The position numbers were made by a program, and so were the translations under genes. Of a stretch of DNA of 35,837 nt, positions 1 through 18,218 are shown piece after piece. Every line of letters begins with the position of its first letter. Position 1 is the first letter of the stretch. Origin of the DNA: Streptomyces sp. NTH33 (GTDB taxonomy: Bacteria > Actinomycetota > Actinomycetes > Streptomycetales > Streptomycetaceae); NCBI RefSeq assembly GCF_003236365.1, contig NZ_POTZ01000013.1, positions 1 through 35,837 on the forward strand. The letters are read 5' to 3'. The notes below the pieces were generated by a model, which was not told the origin of the DNA, searched no databases, and saw nothing but the letters and a program-made list of their open reading frames with translations.

Positions 1-515
1 GCGGCGACGCCCGCGGACTGCAGGCCGGCCACGTAGGCGGCGGTGTGCCGGGCGACCAGCCCGGGATCGGCGCCGAAGGAGCGGACCCCGATGACCGGGT
101 TGCGAGGATTGGAGTTGACGTCGGCGGACGGCGCCCAGTTGAGGTTGACGCCGCACTCCGCGAGCCGCCGGCCGAGCTCCAGGGCCGCGCTCCGGGTCAG
201 CTCCACGTCGTCCACCGCGCCGAGCGCGTGGTTGCCGGGGAAGCTGGAGCCGGTGCGCACCTCCAGGCGGGTGACGTCGCCGCCCTCCTCGTCGATGGCG
301 ACCAGGACGTCGTCCCGTTCCTCGCGCAACCGCGCGGTCAGTGCGGCCAGTTGCCCGGGTGAGGCGATGTTGCGGCCGAACAGGCCGACCGAGGCCAGGC
401 CCTCGCCGAGGCGGCGCAGCAGCCAGTCGGGGGGCGTGGTCCCGGTGAAGCCGGGCTGGAGGACGGTCAGCGCGTCGCGGGTGAGCGTGTCGGTTCCGCT
501 GGCGATTGTCGTCAT
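1..515 (-). CDS. dasD: GH3 beta-N-acetylhexosaminidase, N-terminal part (C-terminus off the window)
   Basis: About 171 N-terminal residues are visible. The motif VAIDEEGGDVTRL (around residues 72-84) followed by SFPGN and NWAPSADVN matches the barrel start of glycoside hydrolase family 3 enzymes of the NagZ type, where the equivalent segment is D-Q/E-E-G-G-x-V-x-R. No signal peptide is seen, so it is probably cytoplasmic and cleaves imported N-acetylglucosamine oligosaccharides. The ATG at 513-515 lies 9 bases after the dasC stop, so it is very likely the last gene of the dasABC transcript. The catalytic His/nucleophile regions are outside the window. Identity as DasD rests on family plus context. 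Confidence 0.85.
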   Translation of the reverse strand, partial: MTTIASGTDTLTRDALTVLQPGFTGTTPPDWLLRRLGEGLASVGLFGRNIASPGQLAALTARLREERDDVLVAIDEEGGDVTRLEVRTGSSFPGNHALGAVDDVELTRSAALELGRRLAECGVNLNWAPSADVNSNPRNPVIGVRSFGADPGLVARHTAAYVAGLQSAGVA

Positions 516-524
516 CGGGTGGCG

Positions 525-1376
525 TTATCCCTTCACGGCGCCCGCGGTCAGACCCGCGGCCATCTTGCGCTGGACGAGCAGGAACAGGACGACGATCGGT
601 ACGGCCATCATCGTGGCGCCGGCCATCATCGGGGCGTATTCGGTGCCGTGCTTGGTGGTGAAGTTGGCGAGCCAGACGGTCGCGGTCTGACGCTCCTGGC
701 TGAGCAGCATCAGGGCGTACAGGTACTCGTTCCAGGCCTGGATGAAACCGTAGACCGAGGTGGCGACCAGGCCGGGGGCCAGCAGTGGGAAGACGACCCG
801 GACGAACGCCCCGGTGCGGGAGCAGCCGTCGACCATGGCGGCCTCCTCCAGCTCCCGGGGGATGTTGACGATGAAACCGCGCAGCATCCACACGGTGAAG
901 GGGAGGATGAAGGTTAGGTAGGTGATGATCAGACCGGTGAGCTTGTCGTACTGCTTCAGGTCGTTCAGCAGCAGGAAGACCGGGATGATCATGGCCACCA
1001 GCGGCACCATCTGGACCGCCAGGATGCCCACGATCACGACCTTGCGGCCGCGGAAGGCGAAGCGGGAGATGGCGAGCGCGGCCAACATGCCGACGACCAT
1101 GCCGATCGCCACCACCGACAGCGACACGACCAGGCTGCGGCCGACCGAACCCCAGAAGTCGGCGATGTCCAGCGCCCGGCGGAAGTTCGACAGGGTGAGC
1201 CCCGTGGGCAGCAGGCTCGGATCGGGGTCGATGGCGTCCTTGGCCGGCTTGAACGCCGTGTTGAGCATCCAGTAAAGGGGGAAGCCGGCGGTGACGAGGA
1301 CGAGCAGGCCGAGCATGTCCCAGCCGAGCCTCGCCCTCCGGCGGCGGGGAGCTGCGAGGGTACTCGTCCCGCTCAT
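525..1376 (-). CDS. dasC: ABC sugar transporter permease DasC
   Basis: 283-residue inner-membrane permease of the CUT1 sugar ABC family. Six hydrophobic segments are visible, and the EAA loop that contacts the ATPase reads ELEEAAMVDGCSRTGAF followed by PLLAPG. It forms the DasB-DasC channel for N,N'-diacetylchitobiose. The start ATG overlaps the dasB stop (ATGA, 1373-1376), which points to translational coupling. No ATPase gene is nearby; in streptomycetes the shared ATPase MsiK, encoded elsewhere, energises this transporter (family knowledge). Confidence 0.95.
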   Translation of the reverse strand: MSGTSTLAAPRRRRARLGWDMLGLLVLVTAGFPLYWMLNTAFKPAKDAIDPDPSLLPTGLTLSNFRRALDIADFWGSVGRSLVVSLSVVAIGMVVGMLAALAISRFAFRGRKVVIVGILAVQMVPLVAMIIPVFLLLNDLKQYDKLTGLIITYLTFILPFTVWMLRGFIVNIPRELEEAAMVDGCSRTGAFVRVVFPLLAPGLVATSVYGFIQAWNEYLYALMLLSQERQTATVWLANFTTKHGTEYAPMMAGATMMAVPIVVLFLLVQRKMAAGLTAGAVKG

Positions 1377-2359
1377 TCGACTTCTCCTATCTTCAGCATC
1401 TGGCGCATGTAGACGGCGACCACGCCGAGCAGCAGCCCCACCGTGACCAGGGCGATCGCCGAGCCCTGCGCGTAGTCGTTGACCACGAAGGCGCGGTCGT
1501 AGGAGTAGGTGTTGAGGACCTGGAACTCCGCCTCGGGGTGGCCGCCCCGCATCACGAACACCTGCGGGAAGACGCCCATGTCCCAGATCACCGACAGGGT
1601 GGTGAGCATCACGATGATCGGCTTGAGGATCGGCAGGGTGACATGGCGGAAGACGCCCCAGGCGCCCGCGCCGTCCAGCCGCGCGGCCTCCTCCAGCTCC
1701 TTGGGCACCTGGGTCAGGCCCGCGCCGAGCGTGATGGCCACGAAGGGCACGGCGCCCCACACCACAAGGAGCATGATCACGGCCAGGCCCTCGGGCCCGC
1801 TCGCAAACCAGTTGTGGCCGACCATCTCGACCCCGGGCAGCCGGCTGAGCAGCGCGTTGAAGACGCCGTAGTCGGAGTCGAAGAGCCACTTGAAGACGGT
1901 GGTGGCCACGATGACGGGCATGCCCCAGCTGGCCACCAGCACGATGTTGATCAGGACCTTGAGCCAGGCCGAGACCCGCTGCAGCAGCAGTGCGATCGCC
2001 ATGCCGGCGACCATGGTGAAGGCCACGCAGCCGACGGCGAAGACGATCGTGCGCAGAACGACCGCCCAGAACTCGCCGTCGTCCAGCACACCGGTGAAGT
2101 TGGCGAACCCGACCCACTCGGCCGACTGGAAGCCCCACAGCTGCGACTGACCGAACTTCTGGAAGGACAGGGTGACCAGGCGCGCCAGCGGATACGCCAT
2201 GACCAGGGTCAGCACCAGCAGGCAGGGCGCGAGCAGCAGCCAGGGGGTCGCGGCCCCGCCGGAGGTGCGCTGTCCGCGCGGCCGGTCGGGGACGGCTGGT
2301 GGCGGTGCCTGCCGCGGTGGCGGCACCTTGGCAGGGGTGGTCGTGTCTGCGGCACTCAT
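1373..2359 (-). CDS. dasB: ABC sugar transporter permease DasB
   Basis: 328-residue CUT1 permease with a basic, proline-rich cytoplasmic N-terminus of about 38 residues, six predicted membrane helices and the EAA loop ELEEAARLDGAGAWGVF. It pairs with DasC to transport chitobiose delivered by the lipoprotein DasA. The ATG at 2357-2359 follows the dasA stop by 127 bases; that gap holds two strong hairpins (see separate entry), so expression relative to dasA is probably reduced by partial termination or processing. The 3' end overlaps dasC by 4 bases. Confidence 0.95.
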   Translation of the reverse strand: MSAADTTTPAKVPPPRQAPPPAVPDRPRGQRTSGGAATPWLLLAPCLLVLTLVMAYPLARLVTLSFQKFGQSQLWGFQSAEWVGFANFTGVLDDGEFWAVVLRTIVFAVGCVAFTMVAGMAIALLLQRVSAWLKVLINIVLVASWGMPVIVATTVFKWLFDSDYGVFNALLSRLPGVEMVGHNWFASGPEGLAVIMLLVVWGAVPFVAITLGAGLTQVPKELEEAARLDGAGAWGVFRHVTLPILKPIIVMLTTLSVIWDMGVFPQVFVMRGGHPEAEFQVLNTYSYDRAFVVNDYAQGSAIALVTVGLLLGVVAVYMRQMLKIGEVE

Positions 2360-2405
2360 CGCGCGCTCCTCAGCGGTCCCTCAGGTCGTACGAAGGCGAA
2401 GCCCC

Positions 2406-2479
2406 GCACGACCGTGCGCGGACGGGCCGGCGCACGGTCGTACGAGAAGCAGGGCCCCGCGGCGGTGGCAGGGCCCTGC
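2406..2479 (-). terminator. Two consecutive hairpins in the dasA-dasB gap
   Basis: Arm 2406-2419 pairs with 2430-2443 (14 positions, one mismatch, 10-nt loop). Arm 2449-2457 pairs perfectly with 2471-2479 (9 bp, 13-nt loop). No T-run follows. Their place just after the binding-protein gene and before the permeases fits a partial terminator or 3' stabiliser that keeps dasA mRNA above dasB/dasC; this role is inferred. Confidence 0.6.
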
Positions 2480-2486
2480 GCTCCGG

Positions 2487-3773
2487 TCACTTGGTGTTGA
2501 TCACCTTGTCGATCGCGGCGTCCGCCTCCTTGGCTGCCGCCTCGACCGACTTCTTGCCGGTGCCGATGTTCTGCAACATGGTCTGCAGCACCTGGGCCTT
2601 CTCGACCTGGCCCCAGCCGGGGGCCATCGGGACGAACCAGTTGGACTCGGCCGCGGTGGCCGGGACGGCCGTCGCGGGGTCGTTCTTCAGTGTCGCGAGG
2701 TCGGTCTTGTTGTTGGGCAGGTTGCCCTTGCCCATCAGCCCCTTCTGGCCCGAGGGGCCGGTGAAGGCGTCGATCCACTCGGCGGCGAGCGCCTGTGCCT
2801 TGGACTTCACCGGGATGGCGAGGTCGGAGCCGCCCAGGAAGACCGGCATGTTCTTGCCGGACGGTCCGGGCATCACGAAGTTCTCGTTGTTGTCCTTGAG
2901 CTTGCCGGTCTTGTCGTTCTCCGGGGCGGCCGAGGCCGCGCCCTCCCAGGCAGCGCCGAAGATCATGCCGGACTTGCCCTGGCCGTAGACGATGTGACGG
3001 TCCGACTCATCCTTGGTCCTGTCGCCGTGCATGTACTTGCCGACGACGTTCCTGAACTCGTTGAGCCCCTTGAGGGACTCGGGCGAGGAGAGATCGGCCT
3101 TCCACTGGCCGCCCTCCTCCTTGGCAATGGAGCCGCCGGCGTCGTAGACGAAGGACATGGCCGCGTACCAGTCGCGCGTGGGCTGGTACCAGGCGCTGAA
3201 CTTGTCCCCCTGCTTCTTCTGGACCTTGTCCAGGCCGGCCGTGAGTTCCTGGTAGGTCTTCGGCGCGGACTTCACGCCGGCCGCGGCGAACACGTCCTTG
3301 CGCCAGTTGGCGACCCGGCCGCCCGCGTAGTACGGGACGCCGTAGGTCTTGCCGTCGTAGGTCACCGAGGCCTTCAGACCGTCCAGCCAGGCCTCGGAGC
3401 CGCTGAACTTCGCCGGGTCGACGGGGGCGAAGGCGCCCTTGACCATGTAGCCGAGCATCTCGGTGTTGCCCATCTCGACCACGTCGGGGGCCTTGTCGGT
3501 GGCGAGAACGGCGTCCAGCTTGGTGTTCTTGTCCGGCCAGCCGTAGTACTCGTGCTTGATCTTCAGGCCCGGGTGCTTCTTCGTCACCGCGTCGTCGGCG
3601 GCCTTGACCAGTTCCGGCCAGTTGTTCTGCGCGTCCACGGTGAGCCAGACGGTCAGCTCCTTGGCGTCGGCGCCGCCCTTGCCGGAGCCTCCGTCCTTGT
3701 TGTCACTCCCGCACGCCGCGATGGAGACCATCATGCCCGCGATACCGATCGCGGCAACCAGCTTGCGCTTCAC
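2487..3773 (-). CDS. dasA: Chitobiose-binding lipoprotein DasA
   Basis: 428-residue extracytoplasmic solute-binding protein of the CUT1 family. A lipoprotein signal is clear: MKRK, a hydrophobic stretch, then SIAAC with the lipidated Cys at residue 21, followed by a polar linker. The mature protein begins AKELTVWLTVDAQNNW and ends AIDKVINTK, closely resembling S. coelicolor DasA as I remember it. The GTG at 3771-3773 is chosen because GAGGAGG sits just upstream and the signal peptide starts there; a longer in-frame extension lacks such a site. It captures N,N'-diacetylchitobiose for DasBC. Transcription is divergent from dasR, and two DasR-type operators lie 100-140 bases upstream. Confidence 0.96.
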   Translation of the reverse strand: MKRKLVAAIGIAGMMVSIAACGSDNKDGGSGKGGADAKELTVWLTVDAQNNWPELVKAADDAVTKKHPGLKIKHEYYGWPDKNTKLDAVLATDKAPDVVEMGNTEMLGYMVKGAFAPVDPAKFSGSEAWLDGLKASVTYDGKTYGVPYYAGGRVANWRKDVFAAAGVKSAPKTYQELTAGLDKVQKKQGDKFSAWYQPTRDWYAAMSFVYDAGGSIAKEEGGQWKADLSSPESLKGLNEFRNVVGKYMHGDRTKDESDRHIVYGQGKSGMIFGAAWEGAASAAPENDKTGKLKDNNENFVMPGPSGKNMPVFLGGSDLAIPVKSKAQALAAEWIDAFTGPSGQKGLMGKGNLPNNKTDLATLKNDPATAVPATAAESNWFVPMAPGWGQVEKAQVLQTMLQNIGTGKKSVEAAAKEADAAIDKVINTK

Positions 3774-9652: not shown

Positions 9653-11026
9653 TCACCTCGGCACCGGCCGCACCAGCAGCCTGCGCGGGCGCAGGGTGAT
9701 GCCGATCCGGGGCGAGTCGTCCGACCCGGCGACCTGCTCCAGGCGGAACCTCGTCGCCACCGCCGCCGTGAAGAGGCTCAGCAGCGCCATGGAGAAGTGG
9801 TCGGCGGGGCACTTGCGGTTGCCCACGCCGAACGGGCTCATGGCGTGTTTCGGTACGTCCTCGGCCCGCTGCGGAAGCCAGCGGTCGGGATCGAACTCCA
9901 GGTGGTCCGGGTACGATCGCGGATCGCGCTGGACGGCGTACGGACTGTAGATGATGTCCGCCCCGGCGGGAATATGCCGGCCACCGAGTTCGGTGTCGGT
10001 GACCGCCCGCCGCGTCAATATCCATACGGAGGGCCGCAAACGCATCGTTTCCACAATGACATTGTTGGTGTGCGTGAGCCTGCGGATGTCGCCGAATGCG
10101 ACCGGCCTGCCACCGGTCACGGATTCGGTCTCGGCGCGGATCCGGTCCGCGTGTTCCGGGTGATTCGCGAGTGTCTGCAGCAGCCACATGATCGTGGTGG
10201 CCACCGTTTCACCGCCGGCGGTGAGTATCGCGACCACCTGATCGTGGATCTCCTGCTCCCCGATGGGCTCGCCATTGTCGTCCTCGGCCGTCAGCAATGC
10301 CGTCAGCAAATCGTCCGGATTTTGCCCGGACGCCCGGCGTTCGGCGATGATCTCGTCGACGAGGCGATGCAGATCGGCCAGCGCGCGGTCGAATGCGCGG
10401 TTGGCCGGCAGCGGCAGCCGGTACAGCGGCCCGAGCGGCAGGACCATCCGCCGGTACATGCCGCGGAAGACGGTGGAGAGCGCGCCGCCCAGGCGCTCGG
10501 CGCGCTCGTCCATGTACGGGCCGCGCAGCAGGCAGCGGGCCGAGACGCGCACGGCGATCCGGAATGCCTCCGAGGTGCAGTCGACCGGCCGGCCGGAGCT
10601 CCAGCGCTCGGTCAGCGCGTGCGCCTCCTCCTCCATGACCGGACCGTAGGCGGGGATGGCGTCGCGCCGGAAGGCGGGCTGAATGGTGCGGCGCTGGCGG
10701 CGGTGCAGGGGGCCGTTGGCGGTGGCCACGCCCTCCTTGCCGAGCAGGCTCTCCAGGGTCTCCCACAGCGGGCCGGAGATGATGTAGTCGGGGTTCAGGG
10801 CCACCGCTCCGGTGAGGGCGGGGGTGGTGACGGCGTACACCGTCTTGGGGCCGAGCCGGAGGCGGACGACGTCGCCGTGGTCGCGCAGCCGGCACATGAA
10901 GGCCAGGGGATCGCGGGCCAGTTTCAGACTGTGGCCGAGAAGCGGCACCGCCCCTCCGGCCACCGGCGGCTCGTGCGGTTCCTCCGTTTTCTGCCGGGCC
11001 TCGGGATTCACCGACTCGACGGTCAT
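9653..11026 (-). CDS. Cytochrome P450 CYP170A (albaflavenone monooxygenase)
   Basis: 457-residue soluble P450. The I-helix region reads [18 protein letters not shown]; the K-helix ExxR is VETMRLRP; the heme loop is [14 protein letters not shown] with Cys406 as iron ligand (Pro-Ala after Cys instead of the usual Gly is as I recall it for CYP170A1). It oxidises epi-isozizaene in two steps to albaflavenols and albaflavenone. CYP170A1 also has a moonlighting farnesene synthase site; the segment [13 protein letters not shown] is the acidic motif of the kind implicated, but I cannot assess its activity. The start overlaps the synthase stop by 4 bases (ATGA), so the two genes are one operon. Confidence 0.93.
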
Positions 11027-12114
11027 TTCTCACCTGCCGCTTCGTTGTCGACATACGGGGGCGTGGACCGGTCGTCCCAGCTGTCGACCATGTAACGGCC
11101 GGACTCGTGGTGGAACCAGTAGACGGCACTGAACCAGTTCCGCATATTGCCGAGGCAGTCCCTTACGGCGGTGCTCAGTTCCTTTCCCCGCACCGTGCCG
11201 TCCGCGAGGCCGTCGGCGAAACGTAATCCCTCCTGTTCGGCGACGAGGAATTCGGAAACGCACTCCTCGATGCGCCGGCGCATTTCCCTCACCGCCTCCT
11301 CCAGGGTCAGTCCGCCATGTTTGACGAGACTGATCCCCAGATTGTGCACCTCGTCGCCCGCCAGTTCCTTGGGCAGCGAGCACAGGTCGTTGTACCAGGC
11401 GGCGAATTCCTGGCTGAGCAGTGCCGGGCGCCGGTAGGCGGGGTTCTTCCGGACGGCGTCCGGGAGTTCGCGGCCGGCGCTCGGCTCCAGCAGGTCGGTC
11501 CAGATCCAGTGCGCGAAGGTGAGCCGGCGCAGCGCGAGGTACTCCTCGACCGTGGGCACCACGCCCTCGGTGCGGTTGTGGAACTCCCGGTCGTACGCCT
11601 CGATCACCGCGTGGAAGTGCCGGGCGAAGCGGGCGTTCCACGTCGGCGACAGGAACGAGTAGAACCGCAGCACGCTGTCCGCCAACCCCGCGACCAGGGC
11701 GTCCCGGTGGTGCAGATGCTCCCGGGGGGAGTCCAGAGCCGTGTGCAGCGCACTGCGCAGCCTCCGCCAGGCGGCGGGCCGGCCGTGGACGACGCAGCGG
11801 TCATGACGGTCGTCCCAGACGAAGAACCACGCGCTGTAGTCCGCTATCGCCTGGAGCACCTCGTCCGGGGCGCCGATGTAGTACCCCGCCATGAGGTCGG
11901 TGTAGCACAGGCCGTCCGCGTGTTCCTCGACCTTGTCGGCCGGCATGAGCCGCTTATCCAGCAGCCAGCCGCGGGTCTTCTCCTGGAGTTGGGGCCAATA
12001 GGCGTGCAACTGCCTGGGAAACACGGCCTCGATCACCGGGAGAGCGAGCTGCGGCGGGACTGCGATCGCCGTCGGTGTGGATGTCGTTGTGGTGCTGTGC
12101 GGGAAAGCTGGCAC
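11023..12114 (-). CDS. cyc1: epi-Isozizaene synthase (class I sesquiterpene cyclase)
   Basis: 363 residues. It cyclises farnesyl diphosphate to epi-isozizaene. The Asp-rich metal motif is FVWDDRHDR (D101-D105) and the NSE motif is NDLCSLPKE (N242, S246, E250); the C-terminal [15 protein letters not shown] is the conserved RY segment. The sequence closely follows the S. coelicolor enzyme (361 residues) as I remember it. The GTG at 12112-12114 is chosen because the family starts there and GAGGGG lies 7 bases upstream. Residue 297 is encoded by TTA (11224-11226), the rare codon read by the bldA tRNA, so expression may depend on development. It is coupled to the P450 downstream. Confidence 0.95.
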
Positions 12115-12340
12115 GAACAAACCCCTCTCAGCCGCCAGTGACGTGCGCCCCTTCTGTTGTGCCGGGCGCACGCCGTCGCGTATCCCCGTACTCCCATTCA
12201 GCACCACAACTGACCGCTCTGGGAACGGATTTGACTCACTCACCATCCCGGGATGCCGAGAATCTCCCCTTGTGTAACTGAATATGAATCAGTGGAAGCG
12301 CACAAAGGATCGAATATGCGCGGCATTCACAACGCCTGTG

Positions 12341-12495: not shown

Positions 12496-13146
12496 TCAGT
12501 CGTTGGCGACGACGGGGTAGCGCGGCTCGTTCTCGGCCATCTGCCGCAGCGCGTCCTTGCGCTCACGCTTGGAGAGCCGGTCGATGTAGAGGTAGCCGTA
12601 GAGGTGATCGGTCTCGTGCTGCAGACACCGCGCGAAGTAACCGGTGCCGCGCACCTTGATCGGGTTGCCCCGCTCGTCCTGTCCGGTCACCTCGGCGTAG
12701 TCGGGGCGGGCGAGCGGCGCGTAGGCGGTGGGCACGGACAGGCAGCCCTCGTTGCTGTCGTCCAGGCGGCGGCGGTCGGCGGGCAGCTCGACCAGCTCGG
12801 GGTTGCAGACGACGCCGACGTGCCGGGCACCGTCGTCGTCCGGGCAGTCGTAGACGAAGACCTTCAGGTCCACACCGATCTGGTTGGCGGCCAGGCCCAC
12901 GCCCTCGGCGGTGCGCTGGCTGGCGAACATGTCCGCGACCAGCTGCTGGAGCTCCTCGCCGAAGTCGGTGACGTCCTTGCACTCCTTGTGCAGCACCGGG
13001 TTGCCGACGACCGTGATGGGCCGGGAGGTGCCGCGCTCGCGCCAGGCCGTCTCGCGCTCCTCGCAGTCCTCCGTGTCGACGACGTACCCCTCGTCGTCGA
13101 CGGGGAGTACGCCCGCGTGCTGCTGATCGGTGTCCTGCTGCGCCAT
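12496..13146 (-). CDS. def: Peptide deformylase
   Basis: 216-residue metalloenzyme that removes the formyl group from new N-terminal methionines. All three motifs are present: GVGLAANQ (residues 82-89), EGCLS (133-137, metal ligand C135) and QHETDH (176-181, ligands H177 and H181 with catalytic E178). It carries about 40 extra acidic, disordered-looking N-terminal residues compared with typical bacterial enzymes of about 170 residues. The EGCLS motif is the type usual in actinobacterial deformylases. It follows the TPR-like gene by 59 bases on the same strand and ends in a strong hairpin. Confidence 0.95.
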
Positions 13147-13205: not shown

Positions 13206-14186
13206 TCAGCAGACCTCTTCCAGGTCCCGCCAGTCCCGGGAGTCCGGGCTGTCGGCGACCCAGCCGTCCAGCAGTCCCCTCACCAGCGAGGCGGGCGCGG
13301 CCACCCCGCACTCCCGCTCCGGCACCCACAGCTGTCCGTCGGTGCGGTGGCCGAGGGGCCCGGGGTGTCCCGGCTCGCTGTGGTCGTGCGGGTCGAGGTG
13401 CTCGCCGTCGCCCTCGTCGGACGGCATCCGCGACTCCGAGCACATCCGGCACAGCAGCCGTACGGACGACGACCAGTCCTCGGCGGCGAAGCCGGCGTCG
13501 GCGGCCAGTTGCTCCAGGGCGTCCCGGTCGGCCTCGGTGGCGGCCTCCAGCAGGACCACCCAGGTGGGCACGGGCGAGGGCGCCCACAGCTCGATCTCGT
13601 CGAAGACGGGGTAGGTGTCACCGGCCGCGATGGTCCGCTCGCCGTGGGGCACGCCGTCGTGCAGCACGACCTCGCCCCAGCGCCGCCCCGAGGAGGGCAG
13701 CGGGATGGACAGCACCTCGATCCGGGCCGGGTCCAGGCGGCGGCCCCAGACCACCTCGGCCTCGCCCTCCGGCGACAGCCGCACGGCCGCGCTGCCCAGC
13801 TCCATGCCCACCGGCTCCCCGGCGGCGGCCGCGCCTCCGGGCACCTTCAGGCCGTACGCCTGCCAGGCCCGCCGGGCCAGCGGCCAGTCCTGCAGGGCGG
13901 TGGCGGCGATGCCGACGTTCCACCAGTCGGGTGCCCCGGTCTCCTTCTCCAGCAGGGCCACGGCCCTCAGCCCCGCCGTCCTGGCCTGCTCCCAGTCGTG
14001 CCGGAACTTGTGCAGCAGGGCGAGGTTGAACCAGGACTCGGACAGCCAGGGCTCCAGGTCGGCGGCGCGCGTCAGCAGCGCGCCCGCGTCCTCGTACCGG
14101 CCGTCGCCGATCAGGGTGAACGCGCGGTCGGTGGCCTGCCGCCAGGAGGCGGAGGGCCGGTGCCGTACCTTGCCGAAGATCCTCAC
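13206..14186 (-). CDS. TPR-like protein of unknown function
   Basis: 326 residues. Residues about 10-110 look like two to three tetratricopeptide units (DRAFTLIGDGRYEDAGALL, SESWFNLALLHKFRHDWEQA, APDWWNVGIAATALQDWPLA), followed by an alpha/beta region (EVVWGRRLDPARIEVLSIPLP and WGEVVLHDG) and a His/Cys-containing tail (LLCRMCSES, HLDPHDHSEPGH, PERECG). The GTG at 14184-14186 is chosen because the homologous start VRIFGKV begins there; the ribosome site is poor. No signal peptide or membrane helix. It sits between the HD-domain pair and def on the same strand. Function not recognised. Confidence 0.8.
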   Translation of the reverse strand: MRIFGKVRHRPSASWRQATDRAFTLIGDGRYEDAGALLTRAADLEPWLSESWFNLALLHKFRHDWEQARTAGLRAVALLEKETGAPDWWNVGIAATALQDWPLARRAWQAYGLKVPGGAAAAGEPVGMELGSAAVRLSPEGEAEVVWGRRLDPARIEVLSIPLPSSGRRWGEVVLHDGVPHGERTIAAGDTYPVFDEIELWAPSPVPTWVVLLEAATEADRDALEQLAADAGFAAEDWSSSVRLLCRMCSESRMPSDEGDGEHLDPHDHSEPGHPGPLGHRTDGQLWVPERECGVAAPASLVRGLLDGWVADSPDSRDWRDLEEVC

Positions 14187-14292
14187 GATTCCCGCCTGCC
14201 AGTTCCGTTCGGTGGGCTGGCTTCTGCCCCCCGGACACCCTCTCCTTCGCATCCAACCACGTACGGCTGGAAAGGCGCTCATTACCCATGGG

Positions 14293-15525
14293 TTACCCCA
14301 CGGCGGGCGACGCCAGACCGTCGCGTGAGAGTACACGGGCCAGCGACTCCACCACATCGGAGGCGTAATCGGCCGCCAGCCGCAGCTCCTCCAGGGCCTG
14401 GAGCGACCCGCCGGGTCCGGCGTCGCGCGCCTTCTCCTCGTAGGCGTTGACGGCCCGCACGATCCGCGCGGGCAGCGGCTGCTCCCGGCAGGGGTCGGCC
14501 TGGCGTTCCACCACGACCGCGACCCGCGCGTCGACCCCGGTCTGCCGTACGACGGCCCCGCCGAGCAGCGCGATGCGCCGCTGCTGCTCGGCGGGCAGGC
14601 CGGCGGTGGCGCCCGCGGGGACCGGGTCGACCAGGCTGAGCTGCCCGATGTCGTGCATGAGGGCCGCGTGCTCCAGCACGGTCAGCTCCGGCTCCGTCAG
14701 GCCCAGGTCCCGGCCCACGGCCCGGCTGAGCGCGGCCACGCGCCGGGCGTGCCCGGGCGGGGTGTACCCGGCGACCTCGGTGGCGCGGGCCAGGGAGGCG
14801 ATGGTCTGCCGGTAGGTGCTCCGCACGGCCGCGTACCGTCTCAGGGAGAGCTGGGTGAGCAGCAGCGGCACCGAGAACACGGGCAGCGCCCACAGCCCGG
14901 CCACCGCGACCGCGAGGGCCATGACCGCGCCGGTCGCGCACACCGCCGAGCCGATCCCGAGCAGCCCGCGCAGCTCCTCGCGCAGCAGCGGGCCGAACGG
15001 CCACCGGGTACGGCAGTGCGCCGACGCGGCGGCCAGCACGGCGCCGCACAGCGCGGTGAGCACCAGCAGCGCGAGCAGCAGCAGGGCGTACGCCGGGCCG
15101 GTCCAGCCCCGGAACGCCCCTTCGCCGTACAGCGGCTGGAAGCAGACGGCCGCGAAGGCGACGGTGAGGATCCGCCGCGCGAGGTGGTCGAGGGCCTGGC
15201 CCTCCCCGCGCGCGAGATGCGGCACGCTGCCGAGCAGACACGCCCCGAGCACCACGGCGACGACCTGGAAGGCCCCGTGGTGACTGGCCCGCCCGGCGTC
15301 CTCGCCCAGCAGGGCGTACGACAGCCCTCCCGCGGCACCCAGCGGCGCGGCCTCCCGGACACCGGCCCCGCTCCACCGCGCGAGCTCGCCGACGAGCACG
15401 AGCACCCCGAAGGCGAGGGCGGCCCCGCGCTCCTCCACGCCGGTCCACAGGGTGACGCCGAGGGACAGCAGGGCGACGAGGAGAGCCGAGCCACGGATGA
15501 GGACCAGCAGCAGGGAGCGGCTCAT
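14293..15525 (-). CDS. Membrane protein with degenerate HD-GYP-like domain
   Basis: 410 residues. The first about 225 residues hold several hydrophobic helices; a cytoplasmic HD-superfamily domain follows. H259 (PPGHARRVAAL) and the HD pair H291-D292 (LMHDIGQL) are present, but the usual Lys after HDIG is Gln, the third-helix His pair is missing, the HHExxDGxGYP loop is replaced by VVERQADPCRE, and the DAFDAM segment by NAYEEK. It is therefore probably not a working cyclic-di-GMP phosphodiesterase; a binding or regulatory role is inferred. Its start overlaps the upstream canonical HD-GYP gene by 4 bases (ATGA), suggesting co-translation and perhaps a heteromer. Confidence 0.85.
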   Translation of the reverse strand: MSRSLLLVLIRGSALLVALLSLGVTLWTGVEERGAALAFGVLVLVGELARWSGAGVREAAPLGAAGGLSYALLGEDAGRASHHGAFQVVAVVLGACLLGSVPHLARGEGQALDHLARRILTVAFAAVCFQPLYGEGAFRGWTGPAYALLLLALLVLTALCGAVLAAASAHCRTRWPFGPLLREELRGLLGIGSAVCATGAVMALAVAVAGLWALPVFSVPLLLTQLSLRRYAAVRSTYRQTIASLARATEVAGYTPPGHARRVAALSRAVGRDLGLTEPELTVLEHAALMHDIGQLSLVDPVPAGATAGLPAEQQRRIALLGGAVVRQTGVDARVAVVVERQADPCREQPLPARIVRAVNAYEEKARDAGPGGSLQALEELRLAADYASDVVESLARVLSRDGLASPAVG

Positions 15526-16829
15526 CGGCGCGCTTCCTCGCGGTCGGCCGCGGGCGGCACCGGTGGGGAGACGGGCGCCCCGTCCTCGGCCGTGACCGCC
15601 GGGTGCCAGCCGTGCCGGTCCAGGGCCCGTACCAGTGCCGTGACCATCCGCGGGTCGAACTGCGCGCCGGCGCAGCGTTCCAGTTCCTCCAGGGCGGCGC
15701 CGACCGGACGGGCCCGCCGGTAGGAGCGGGTGGAGGTCATCGCGTCGAAGGCGTCCGCGACGGCCACCACCCGTGCGGACTCGGGGATCTGGCTGCCCGT
15801 CAGCCCGTACGGGTAGCCGCTGCCGTCCAGGCGTTCGTGGTGGTGCAGGATCGCCGAGCGGGCCTCGCCGAGGAAGGAGATCCCGCGCACCATCTCGTGC
15901 CCGTACTCGGGGTGCAGCTCGATCACCCGCCGCTCCTCGGGGGTCAGCGGCCCGTCCTTGCGCAGCAGCCGGGTGGGAACGCCCAGCTTTCCCACGTCGT
16001 GCAGGATGCCGGCGAACCGCAGCACCTCGACGCGCTCGTCGTCCATGCCGAGCTCGCGCGCGATCATCATGGAGGCCTGACCGACCCGCTCGCTGTGCCC
16101 GCGCGTGTACCCGTCCTTGATGTCGACGGCCTGCACCAGCGCGCGGATGGTGGCCCGGTGGGCGGCCCGTTCCCGGTGGTACTGGGCGTACACCCACCAC
16201 GACACGCACATCGGCAGCAGCACCAGCAGTGCGGCGACCGGGCCGTAGGGGCTGCGCCACAGCACGGCCATCATCAGTCCCGCGAGCCCGTGCACCCCGA
16301 TCGGCGCCAGTGACCGGGTGAACAGCCCCGGCCACGCCCGCCGGACCGGCACTCTCTCGGCAAGTGCGTGGATCCCGCCGTCCAGCGCCGTCAGCACCAG
16401 GCAGAAGGCGAGCACGGCGGCCCCGGCGGGGGCGAGGGCGTAGGGGAAGTCGGAGGCGGCGACGGCGTCCCGGCCGCCCAGTGCCCCGTGCACCCGGGCA
16501 GCCGCCCAGACCGCGAGGGCGAGCTGGGCCGCCCGCCAGATCCGGCGCAGCCCCTCGGGCCGCTGCCCTGCGCGGGCGAGCAGGACGCCCGGCAGCGGGA
16601 CCAGCGCGGCGGCGGCCGGCGGCAGCAGGAAGGCCGCTGCCAGCAGGACCGGGTAGAAGGGGCCGGCGAGATTGCGCCGGACGAGGTGCCTGCAGCCGGC
16701 GTACACCGCGGCGAGCAGGGCGACCGCCCACCAGGGGGTGCGGGTCACCGGCAGCGGCAGCAGGCAGGTCAGGGCACCGAGGACCACGCAGGCGACGTAC
16801 GCACGGGCCCGTGGTGGAACCGCCTCCAT
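15522..16829 (-). CDS. Membrane HD-GYP domain protein, predicted cyclic-di-GMP phosphodiesterase
   Basis: 435 residues. Residues 1-215 contain about seven hydrophobic segments; residues about 225-405 form a full HD-GYP domain. Metal and catalytic residues are all present: H245 (GHSERVG), H277-D278-K281 (HDVGKLGVP), H306 and H311 (HPEYGHEMV), H330-H331 with DGSGYP (335-340), and D359 (ADAFDAMTS). Such enzymes hydrolyse cyclic-di-GMP, the developmental second messenger of Streptomyces. The ATG at 16827-16829 follows GGGGAGGAG. It is the first gene of an overlapping pair with the degenerate HD protein and lies 135 bases downstream of rsrA. No PAS or other sensor domain apart from the membrane region. 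Confidence 0.9.
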   Translation of the reverse strand: MEAVPPRARAYVACVVLGALTCLLPLPVTRTPWWAVALLAAVYAGCRHLVRRNLAGPFYPVLLAAAFLLPPAAAALVPLPGVLLARAGQRPEGLRRIWRAAQLALAVWAAARVHGALGGRDAVAASDFPYALAPAGAAVLAFCLVLTALDGGIHALAERVPVRRAWPGLFTRSLAPIGVHGLAGLMMAVLWRSPYGPVAALLVLLPMCVSWWVYAQYHRERAAHRATIRALVQAVDIKDGYTRGHSERVGQASMMIARELGMDDERVEVLRFAGILHDVGKLGVPTRLLRKDGPLTPEERRVIELHPEYGHEMVRGISFLGEARSAILHHHERLDGSGYPYGLTGSQIPESARVVAVADAFDAMTSTRSYRRARPVGAALEELERCAGAQFDPRMVTALVRALDRHGWHPAVTAEDGAPVSPPVPPAADREEARR

Positions 16830-16964
16830 GCCGCTCCTCCCCGGTCACGCCTGTCCACGGTGGGAGCGTAGGGCGGACAACGGGGAGTACACGGGGCAAA
16901 GCCCCATGGATTAGCACGTTCGGGTGAACAGTGCCCGAGTGGGCGCATCCGCGCGGACGGCGGG

Positions 16965-17276
16965 TCAGGACTCCTGCGGAGTCACCGGCGCCGCGGTCAC
17001 GTCGCTCTCGGGGACGGTCTGGCCGGAGCGGATCAGCTCGATCCGCCCCATGACCTTGGCGCGCAGGTCGGCGGGTACGTCGTCATGCCCGCAGCACCGC
17101 TTGACCAGCTTCTTCACGGCCTGCTCCAGGCCGTACTTCTCGAGACACGGCGAGCACTCCTCGAAGTGGTGCTCGAACTTGGTGCGATCGACTTCCGGCA
17201 TCTCACTGTCGAGGAACTCGTAGAGGTGGTCGAGCACCTCACCGCAGTCCGTCTCGTGCGGCTCTCCGCAGCTCAT
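16965..17276 (-). CDS. rsrA: Zinc anti-sigma factor RsrA
   Basis: 103-residue ZAS-family anti-sigma factor that holds sigma-R inactive while reduced and releases it when disulfide stress forms an intramolecular disulfide. The full cysteine/histidine set of the S. coelicolor protein is present at the same positions: C3, H7, C11, H37, C41, C44, C61 and C62 (H-x3-C-x2-C at 37-44). The start ATG overlaps the sigR stop by 4 bases (ATGA), coupling synthesis of the pair. Followed by 135 bases before the HD-GYP gene; a small 5-bp hairpin (16893-16905) is the only terminator-like structure there. Confidence 0.97.
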
Positions 17277-17968
17277 GAGCCCGAGCCTTTCGCTTCGTTC
17301 GACTCTCCGGTACCGGCCGGGACCAGTCCGCGCTCGCGGGCGTAGTCCTCGAGCATTCCGCGCAGCTGACGGCGGCCCCGGTGCAGCCGGGACATCACCG
17401 TACCGATGGGTGTCCCCATGATGTCCGCGATCTCCTTGTAGGCAAAGCCCTCCACGTCCGCGAGGTAGACGGCTATGCGGAACTCCTCGGGGATCGCCTG
17501 CAGCGCTTCCTTTACGTCCGAGTCGGGCAGGTGGTCGAGCGCCTGCGACTCGGCGGAGCGCAGCCCCGTCGACATGTGCGACTCGGCCCGCGCGAGCTGC
17601 CAGTCCTCGATGTCCTCGGCCGCGCTGCGCTGGGGTTCGCGCTGCTTCTTGCGGTAGGAGTTGATGAACGTGTTGGTGAGGATCCGGTACAGCCACGCCT
17701 TGAGGTTGGTGCCCTCGCGGAACTGGTGGAACGAGGCGTACGCCTTGGCGTAGGTCTCCTGCACCAGGTCCTCGGCGTCGGCCGGGTTGCGCGTCATGCG
17801 CAGCGCGGCCGAATACATCTGGTCGAGGAATTCGAGCGCGTCCCGCTCGAAGCGCGCACTGCGCTCGGCGCTCGACTCCGCGGACGCTTCCACACGCGCG
17901 CCCCGGCCCTCGGGCTGCTCCGCCTGGCCGTTGTCGGCCCCTGCGTCGGTACCGGGAACCGGACCCAC
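17273..17968 (-). CDS. sigR: Redox-responsive ECF sigma factor SigR
   Basis: 231 residues in the short form. Region 2 ([27 protein letters not shown], quoted here only as its span around residues 45-75) and region 4 ([18 protein letters not shown]) are intact. It directs transcription of thioredoxin, mycothiol and proteostasis genes under thiol oxidation. The short start GTG (17966-17968) corresponds to the S. coelicolor start VGPV; however the purines GAGGAG abut it directly, with no normal Shine-Dalgarno spacing. A second, longer start exists at 18133 (separate entry). It is autoregulated by a sigma-R-type promoter upstream and translated together with rsrA. Confidence 0.95.
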
Positions 17969-18133
17969 CTCCTCAAACGATGTCGGAGGACCGGAAGCGG
18001 TCCCACCCGAATCGGAGGATAGACGACGATCCGGCCCGCCCGCCGCTCGAATCGGAGCGGTCCTGGCCGCGTGCAGCACCGTCCAGTCCAGGGCAGTACG
18101 GCTGCTGCGGCTCGGGCATACGGTCGAACCCAT
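17969..18133 (-). other. N-terminal extension of sigma-R' (upstream in-frame start)
   Basis: An ATG at 18131-18133 is preceded by AGGAGAGGA with 10-base spacing and opens a frame into sigR that adds exactly 55 residues ([13 protein letters not shown]...). The unstable induced isoform sigma-R' of S. coelicolor has the same 55-residue extension. It lies downstream of the sigma-R-dependent promoter, so induced mRNA would make the longer form. Clp degradation of sigma-R' gives negative feedback in S. coelicolor (established knowledge). Confidence 0.85.
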
Positions 18134-18191
18134 GCGGCGGACTTCCTCTCCTGTGACGTAGGTGCCGGTGACCGGCACCCCTGTCCGCCTC

Positions 18192-18218
18192 AACAGCGCC
18201 CGGGGGCCGGACATTCCC
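18192..18218 (-). promoter_or_regulatory. Sigma-R-dependent promoter of sigR (sigRp2)
   Basis: On the minus strand GGGAAT (18218-18213), an 18-base spacer and GTT (18194-18192) fit the sigma-R consensus GGAAT-N18-GTT exactly. It would start transcription near 18185, upstream of the sigma-R' ATG at 18133. Confidence 0.9.

Follow-up and report, generated by a model that had tools for sequence, protein, structure and literature searches.

In Streptomyces venezuelae, the genes hdgA and hdgB (vnz24090/vnz24095) encode, respectively, a protein with a conserved HD-GYP domain and one in which this domain is degenerate and missing the GYP residues (Al-Bassam 2018, PMC6205966). Both proteins have six predicted transmembrane helices and were detected in the membrane fraction only, the two genes very likely form one operon, and HdgA is listed as a predicted phosphodiesterase (PMC6205966). 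Here we analyse the corresponding pair in a 35,837-nucleotide stretch of DNA from Streptomyces sp. NTH33 (contig NZ_POTZ01000013.1, positions 1 to 35,837; hereafter the window), together with its relatives across the actinobacteria. The window genes fit what the available text of that paper says of the S. venezuelae pair, being adjacent and co-oriented and encoding a membrane HD-GYP protein and a degenerate counterpart; by description, architecture and relatives they are probably orthologues of hdgA and hdgB. The naming of the pair and the degeneracy of HdgB were already known; as far as our searches reach, the near-obligate pairing of the two genes, the absence of part of the nucleotide pocket from HdgB and a linkage to pilT are new. 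In open-licence PubMed Central papers we found none on the pair outside Streptomyces nor on the pilT link. The 2018 survey, in its available text, inferred no conserved function in Streptomyces, whereas we find strict pairing within the genus and a range extending far beyond it.

Two further systems resemble HdgB. One is the membrane protein DvhD of Desulfovibrio vulgaris (PDB 9rbz), in which the HD-GYP domain binds cyclic diguanosine monophosphate (c-di-GMP) without hydrolysing it (PMC13090378). Like HdgB, it holds a non-catalytic HD-GYP domain on a helical stalk anchored in the membrane; unlike HdgB, it no longer has the HD residues but retains those that contact c-di-GMP, HdgB having done largely the reverse, and the available text of PMC13090378 mentions no paired active paralogue. 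V-cGAP3 of Vibrio cholerae (PDB 5z7c) has, according to sequence alignments, a degenerate domain and a domain with the HD-GYP motif side by side; the HdgB domain best fits the N-terminal, degenerate one and HdgA aligns by sequence with the C-terminal one. The difference is that V-cGAP3 is a single chain rather than two membrane proteins, and that it is annotated as specific for 3'3'-cGAMP.

In the window, hdgA starts with an ATG at 16829 and its TGA ends at 15522, and hdgB starts with an ATG at 15525, so that the genes share four nucleotides (15525-15522). The closest named locus is that of Streptomyces kebangsaanensis, with an HdgB identity of 97%. The parts of the pair, with the evidence for each, are as follows.

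15522..16829, minus strand: hdgA, membrane protein with an intact HD-GYP domain, 435 amino acids (translation; Pfam HD_5/HD; fits the available PMC6205966 description)
16215..16829, minus strand: HdgA membrane domain, residues 1-205, with a predicted fold resembling the S components of energy-coupling factor (ECF) transporters (model; VIA-align; homology to that of HdgB)
15600..16154, minus strand: HdgA HD-GYP domain, residues 226-410 (Pfam, alignment, structure comparison)
15996..16001, minus strand: HdgA His277-Asp278 codons, the HD motif (translation, sequence, alignment)
15810..15818, minus strand: HdgA GYP motif codons, residues 338-340 (translation, sequence, alignment)
15522..15525, minus strand: ATGA overlap of the hdgA stop and the hdgB start (sequence)
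14293..15525, minus strand: hdgB, paralogue with a degenerate HD domain, 410 amino acids (translation; Pfam HD; fits the available PMC6205966 description)
14890..15525, minus strand: HdgB membrane domain, residues 1-212 (model; homology; structure comparison)
14326..14808, minus strand: HdgB degenerate HD domain, residues 240-400 (Pfam, alignment, structure comparison, purifying selection)
14749..14751, minus strand: HdgB His259 codon, kept in 146 of 147 rows (sequence, alignment)
14650..14655, minus strand: HdgB His291-Asp292 codons, each kept in 146 of 147 rows (sequence, alignment)
14641..14643, minus strand: HdgB Gln295 codon, replacing the catalytic Lys, Gln in 143 of 147 rows (sequence, alignment)
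14446..14448, minus strand: HdgB Asn360 codon, replacing the metal-binding Asp, Asn in 144 of 147 rows (translation, alignment)

Translation and alignment give HdgA the residues H245, H277-D278, K281, HHHE at 329-332, GYP at 338-340 and D359, and its Pfam matches are strong (HD_5, PF13487, 146.3 bits against a cut-off of 27.2; HD, 78.3 bits). HdgB keeps H259 and H291-D292, has Gln295 for the Lys and Asn360 for the Asp, and has no GYP loop; it matches Pfam HD (PF01966) at 25.5 bits, above the cut-off of 22, and HD_5 at 19.1 bits, below the cut-off of 27.2. The H...HD signature, the PF01966 match and a Z of 17.8 to an HD-GYP structure in the VIA tool place HdgB in the HD superfamily by fold, whereas it does not have the residues of an HD-GYP phosphodiesterase, there being no GYP motif and an incomplete set of metal ligands. 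An earlier note on the window, made from the sequence alone, had described two adjacent genes of like architecture overlapping by ATGA, the first with all HD-GYP residues and the second with H259, H291 and D292 left and the Lys, the GYP loop and the later ligands gone. Coordinates, strand, overlap and residues all hold on rechecking, and the canonical and degenerate membrane HD-GYP pair is confirmed as real and correctly described. Because its metal and nucleotide residues are intact, HdgA is predicted to be an HD-GYP phosphodiesterase hydrolysing c-di-GMP.

Both sets of residues are conserved. We aligned 147 HdgB and 144 HdgA rows from Streptomyces, in which the window counts as one row, species may be shared between two locus collections, and two copies of the window locus, L131, L136, L138 and frames that are open-ended or contain stops are omitted. 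The HD-GYP residues of HdgA (HD metal residues, Lys, HHE, GYP and later Asp) are each kept in at least 142 of the 144 rows. In HdgB, H259, H291 and D292 each occur in 146 of the 147 rows, Gln295 in 143 and Asn360 in 144, and among 60 rows from the wider class H259, H291, D292 and Gln295 each occur in 59 and Asn360 in 51, with Ser instead in six. The median omega, from 12 pairs per domain with some loci used in more than one pair, is 0.14 for the HD domain of HdgB and 0.09 for that of HdgA, and 0.22 and 0.30, respectively, for the membrane domains. HdgB is thus maintained by purifying selection, and its substituted site is itself conserved in the class.

The two genes are also found together with great regularity. 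We searched 150 Streptomyces genomes, one per species, with HdgB at E 1e-5 and HdgA at E 1e-30. HdgB was matched in 133 genomes (one of them, G149, weakly, at 1e-7) and HdgA in 129, all 129 of which also carry HdgB. Eighteen have neither gene, counting G149; the HdgA and HdgB genome lists were compared by reading, and the one genome unlisted in the HdgA search was deduced to be G149. HdgB without HdgA occurs in three: in G102 and G116 the match begins at a contig end, and in G108 it is a broken remnant. Upstream hdgA was present in 77 of 80 loci from a second genome collection, the other three stretches starting 58-438 bases before the hdgB match, and both genes were present in 39 of 40 further fetched loci, the exception being G108. 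For comparison, the 2018 survey counted 76 HdgA and 79 HdgB orthologues in 93 strains at a cluster cut-off of 45% identity (PMC6205966).

A few Streptomyces loci deserve separate mention. At L131, the locus of G108, the hdgB remnant is in two pieces with no hdgA match alongside. At L136 (G128) and L138 (G027) hdgA is split between frames and hdgB is open, for which sequencing error and decay are both possible. Broken hdgB genes indicated in G023, G137 and G005 by a stop or a split match in the search were rejected, the fetched loci holding open frames of 409-439 amino acids. In G119 (L137) one frame of 936 codons comprises the C-terminal part of HdgA and the whole of HdgB, possibly as a natural fusion or through an assembly error; because hdgA on this draft contig also changes frame close to residue 153, we set it aside and do not count it as proof of contact. 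No second fusion was seen in 26 genomes around G119, in a search not built to exclude one.

Beyond the genus, we surveyed 246 genomes of the class, scoring at most six to seven first-look candidates in each, so that absences may be over-counted, and comparing the HdgA and HdgB genome lists by reading. The HdgB profile matches 84 genomes, two of them weakly (G371 and G439); of the remaining 82, 63 are from outside Streptomyces. The HdgA profile at E 1e-40 matches 92, and full-length matches, of at least 290 bits, occur in 79; domain-only matches do not exceed 201 bits, and one contig-end fragment of 226 bits lies between. Every one of the 79 genomes with full-length HdgA carries HdgB. As for the other three of the 82, two (G310 and G369) are cut by contig ends and the third, G455, has a diverged HdgA adjoining. 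Loci were fetched for 60 of the 63 non-Streptomyces genomes (all except G294, G369 and G392), and in 59 of these, some of them cut by contig ends, an hdgA frame lies upstream of hdgB on the same strand, the remaining locus being itself cut. With starts chosen by script, the genes overlap at 36 of 58 loci, by exactly four nucleotides at 28 (L226 lacked a partner, and another locus yielded no gap value).

The pair reaches further still. From a draw of 198 genomes across the phylum, the HdgB profile at E 1e-20 matches 33 outside the class, and 20 of these 33 loci were fetched. At all 20 an HdgB-like frame follows an HdgA-like frame, with an overlap at 19 (script-chosen starts). All 20 first frames have the HD, the Lys, the late Asp and both Arg and Tyr of RxY, and 16 have HHE. 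The second frame has GYP in none, the late Asp in one and the Lys in four, and keeps H259 in 19, H291 in 20 and D292 in 18, a pattern that looks like an early loss of catalysis followed by stepwise change of the site. At L261-L263 and L272 the upstream hdgA-like frame has no literal GYP, and at L262 and L272 no clear HHE either; in some lineages outside the class the upstream partner may be degenerate too.

As to whether, in the terms of the earlier note, homologues of the second protein frequently occur without the first, the actinobacterial co-occurrence survey found that they do not: across the 150 genomes of the genus and the 246 of the class, HdgB without a clear HdgA amounts to four contig ends, one broken remnant and one diverged HdgA alongside. 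Pairing of HdgA and HdgB is near-obligate in the sampled genomes, far beyond Streptomyces, and this near-universal pairing suggests that the inactive HdgB does a real job. The description of the two as an enzyme/pseudoenzyme pair is backed by residues, conservation, selection and co-occurrence alike.

One genome of the class, G455, shows a pair in an unusual setting. A GGDEF match at E 1e-10 is found in 213 of the 246 genomes and, as read from the lists, in 80 of the 82 with HdgB. The two without one are G336 and G455; both of their pairs are strongly diverged, and the HdgA site is damaged solely in G455, which gave no GGDEF match at that threshold. There (L244) HdgA has lost H245, K281, R368 and Y370, and HdgB keeps H259, H291-D292, Q295 and N360. 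Either the pair persists in this genome without c-di-GMP, or HdgB has work beyond HdgA catalysis. We do not claim GGDEF as a condition for the pair, G455 being one case only.

HdgA and HdgB share a common origin. A profile comparison of the two families gave 99.4%, and with deeper alignments the membrane domains alone matched end to end (97.4%, E 9e-12), against 0.1% (E 0.4) in a column-reversed control. In a tree of HD domains from 17 Streptomyces loci, alternate class loci and the full set of 20 from outside the class, one branch with SH-aLRT support of 100 separates 66 HdgA from 66 HdgB rows. These comparisons point to the two proteins being products of an old duplication, with a homologous membrane domain. 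The AlphaFold models, with a mean predicted local distance difference test score of 85 for HdgB and 80 for HdgA, agree in architecture: a helical region at the N-terminus is followed by a long helix and then by a helical C-terminal domain, which can be aligned with HD-GYP structures. The modelled membrane domain of HdgA aligns with S components at Z 10-13 (4m5b, 12.8; the biotin S component 4dve, 11.5; TmRibU, 11.4; ThiT, 11.2) and that of HdgB at Z 10-12 (TmRibU, 11.8), in a tool that cautions that a Z below about 13 may reflect a common helical arrangement. Among Pfam matches up to E 1 no S-component family appeared for either protein. Because the Z range is ambiguous and no Pfam family matches, we take the predicted S-component-like fold of HdgA and HdgB as a lead.

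On balance, we think it likely that hdgA and hdgB encode an obligate two-subunit membrane module, with HdgA as its catalytic and HdgB as its non-catalytic, regulatory subunit; it is the pairing that makes a heteromer likely. According to this model, HdgB would be a paralogue that arose long ago by tandem duplication, lost its catalytic function together with much of the nucleotide pocket, and was retained as a partner without catalytic activity, and the homologous membrane domains and long helices would join it to HdgA. Input would arrive at the membrane domains, possibly as a small ligand, since the predicted membrane fold resembles vitamin-binding S components. By analogy with V-cGAP3, where a degenerate and a complete domain lie side by side, the HD domain of HdgB may set the conformation of the HD-GYP domain of HdgA, so that a signal from the membrane would be relayed by HdgB to the active site at which HdgA would hydrolyse c-di-GMP. 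Should the pairing indeed reflect a complex, cyclic-dinucleotide signalling would have in HdgB a pseudoenzyme that is both old and strictly maintained, and the question of why a dead HD-GYP protein is kept, standing since the naming of the gene in 2018, would become directly testable in S. venezuelae.

A number of observations weigh against this two-subunit model. Neighbouring genes are inherited and lost together by default, so that pairing alone is no proof of contact, and the genes are not always tightly spaced: in G055 they lie 1.2 kb apart, and in all nine genomes of one family of the window's order (G697-G705) the ends of the HdgA and HdgB-like matches are 1.2-2.1 kb apart, a distance that exceeds the true gene gap by the unmatched start of hdgB. 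Outside the class the assignment of the second frame is looser, its score against the HdgA profile being equal or higher at four of the 20 loci, and the first frame has a literal GYP at only six of the 20, the Pro of GYP being kept at the same number. The tree of HD domains is unrooted and has long branches, with a tool warning where they meet. An attempt to root the duplication with 16 other HD-GYP proteins (nine long or gappy rows left out and the rest thinned) was given up: HdgB stayed one clade and HdgA mixed among the others, and for this reason the sister status of HdgA and HdgB rests on the shared membrane domain. The best VIA match of the HdgB model is V-cGAP3 residues -3..233 (Z 17.8, root-mean-square deviation 2.7, 163 residues), but because the HdgA model aligns with the same range at Z 16.5 the match is not specific to HdgB, and its likeness to the degenerate V-cGAP3 domain is suggestive only; the best structure matches of the HdgA HD-GYP domain (DvhD, PA4781 and 4mcw, at Z 18-20) score above V-cGAP3. 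In S. venezuelae, deletion of hdgA or hdgB gave no developmental phenotype, hdgB transcripts peak at sporulation and hdgA is among the least expressed genes, and 13 of the 93 surveyed strains have neither gene (PMC6205966). Finally, HdgB interacted with itself in a two-hybrid (BACTH) screen centred on RmdB published in 2026, and the available text of that paper makes no mention of a two-hybrid test of HdgA with HdgB (PMC13232838).

The self-interaction of HdgB and the differing expression profiles of the two genes are what one would expect of two separate proteins encoded in one operon, in which HdgB forms a homodimer, serves as a receptor for another ligand or as a scaffold for a different partner, and makes no contact with HdgA, both genes being kept by gene order. 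In G455, too, the HdgB site is kept and the HdgA site lost, in a genome with no GGDEF match, as if HdgB had an independent job. We nevertheless regard this explanation as rather unlikely. HdgB was not seen without HdgA beyond contig ends, one remnant and one diverged pair, and in G055 the pair persists despite the 1.2 kb between the genes.

An improbable alternative is that HdgB acts, like DvhD, as a degenerate receptor that binds c-di-GMP without cutting it and signals by way of its helix, either to the membrane domain or to HdgA. DvhD is a precedent for a membrane protein of this kind (PMC13090378), and the best PDB match of the HdgB model in Foldseek is DvhD with c-di-GMP bound (E 7e-4). 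In that structure c-di-GMP is contacted by Y523, L577, K582, Y621, M646, R650, Y652 and E668 (PMC13090378). The first seven of these align with Y241, L295, R300, Y339, M364, R368 and Y370 of HdgA, each conserved in at least 142 of 144 Streptomyces rows (Y339, M364, R368 and Y370 in 142-143); outside Streptomyces the R300 position is mostly Phe or Tyr and the other contact positions are largely held. In HdgB, R316 (Arg in 144 of 147 rows) stands opposite HdgA R300 and DvhD K582, but opposite Y339, M364, R368 and Y370 there is a gap or a different residue in every case. HdgB thus has no equivalent of the Tyr of GYP, the Met, or the Arg and Tyr of RxY (Y621, M646, R650 and Y652 of DvhD), and it keeps the HD that DvhD lost while having lost most of what DvhD kept. 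The earlier note had suggested a heteromeric c-di-GMP sensor; the heteromer is likely from the pairing, but the role of sensor fits HdgB poorly with these four contact residues lost. Sensing of c-di-GMP through the HD pocket of HdgB appears unlikely from these alignments, and, because the four contacts are missing, any sensing is more likely to occur by the membrane domain.

More improbable still is that HdgB is a working HD hydrolase of another substrate, with a one-metal site made of H259, H291, D292 and N360. The conservation of these residues in Streptomyces and the class and the low omega would fit such an enzyme, but in most class rows Asn or Ser replaces Asp as the fourth ligand, and Gln takes the place of the Lys in 59 of 60. 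In loci from outside the class the residue at the Lys position is R, M, K, L, S or H, Ser stands at the Asp position in 14 of 20 and D292 is lost in two of 20, as would fit a site freed from catalysis. Least probable of all is that the pair is dispensable and without a conserved role, an idea at which the 2018 survey hinted for Streptomyces HD-GYP proteins. In its favour are the absence of the pair from 13 of 93 strains, the lack of a developmental phenotype on deletion (PMC6205966) and its absence from 18 of our 150 Streptomyces genomes; against it are purifying selection on both genes and the recurrence of the pair across many families within the class and in further classes of the phylum.

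For the two-subunit module, gene order outside Streptomyces offers a candidate output. A gene for a PilT-like ATPase, the type of enzyme that retracts type IV pili, lies downstream of hdgB within the fetched flank at 24 of the 60 class loci (L207 and L208 included), often after a biotin carrier gene, and one such ATPase falls in the PilT/PilU family of NCBIfam at 450 bits against a cut-off of 319. Searched at E 1e-90, PilT is present in 40 of the 63 non-Streptomyces HdgB genomes and in none of the other 23, and in 32 of the 40 a pilT gene follows downstream on the strand of hdgB, at a distance of 86-6417 bp from the hdgB match. No PilT match was found in the 22 Streptomyces genomes of the class draw, nor in the fetched flank of any of the 20 loci outside the class. 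PilT is found also in class genomes without HdgB, and with 23 of 63 HdgB genomes lacking PilT, neither hdgB nor pilT therefore needs the other. At the class loci that join hdgB and pilT, the PilT-like gene is often preceded by a gene for a biotin/lipoyl carrier and in some cases by one for a carboxylase (AccC-like).

A link between an HD-GYP protein and the pilus retraction motor has been described in Xanthomonas, where RpfG controls PilT/PilU through GGDEF and PilZ proteins (review PMC3749722). The hdgAB genes are likewise tied to PilT by gene order outside Streptomyces; the difference is that the RpfG link is physical, by way of the GGDEF and PilZ proteins, and that of hdgAB with pilT is known from gene order alone. 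The linkage provides a concrete candidate output for other actinobacteria, and the predicted membrane fold a concrete ligand class. With this in mind, one may tentatively speculate that HdgAB is an ancient two-subunit receptor enzyme across the actinobacterial phylum, in which S-component-like membrane domains would sense a small ligand and HdgB would gate HdgA. Its early output may have been local c-di-GMP at PilT, and Streptomyces would have kept the receptor without the pilus motor.

On the other side of the pair, upstream of hdgA, lie two conserved neighbours, which we take, following the earlier note, to be the genes of an anti-sigma factor and its sigma factor.

16965..17276, minus strand: presumably rsrA (anti-sigma factor), conserved neighbour upstream of hdgA (reading frame MSCGEP...; synteny)
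17273..18214, minus strand: presumably sigR (sigma factor), conserved upstream neighbour, given as the extent of the open frame with a provisional start (open frame; synteny)

The rsrA stop is at 16965, leaving 135 nucleotides between rsrA and hdgA in the window. Matches to both SigR and RsrA occur near the pair at 75 of 80 and at 40 of 40 Streptomyces loci, at 42 of 60 class loci and at three of 20 outside the class. Wherever RsrA was found at a class locus (44 of 44) it is on the strand of hdgA, 459-3406 nucleotides away; at the three loci outside the class it is on the opposite strand. No SigR-type promoter was found before hdgA in a pattern scan of 16701-17300 or in a promoter/terminator scan of 16700-17100. 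The placement of the pair next to sigR-rsrA in the earlier note is thus true and recurs in the class, but at these distances it is evidence of synteny and not of co-regulation.

The opposite flank of the pair is conserved in Streptomyces as well. Matches to the frames at 12496-13146 and 13206-14357, both on the minus strand, each lie near hdgAB at 79 of 80 and at 40 of 40 Streptomyces loci; the former is presumably a peptide deformylase-like gene and the latter a TPR-like one. Farther out, open frames within 9653-12246 (minus strand) have matches near hdgAB at 71 and 72 of the 80 loci, and we assume from their appearance that they encode a cytochrome P450 and a terpene synthase of the epi-isozizaene/albaflavenone-like kind.

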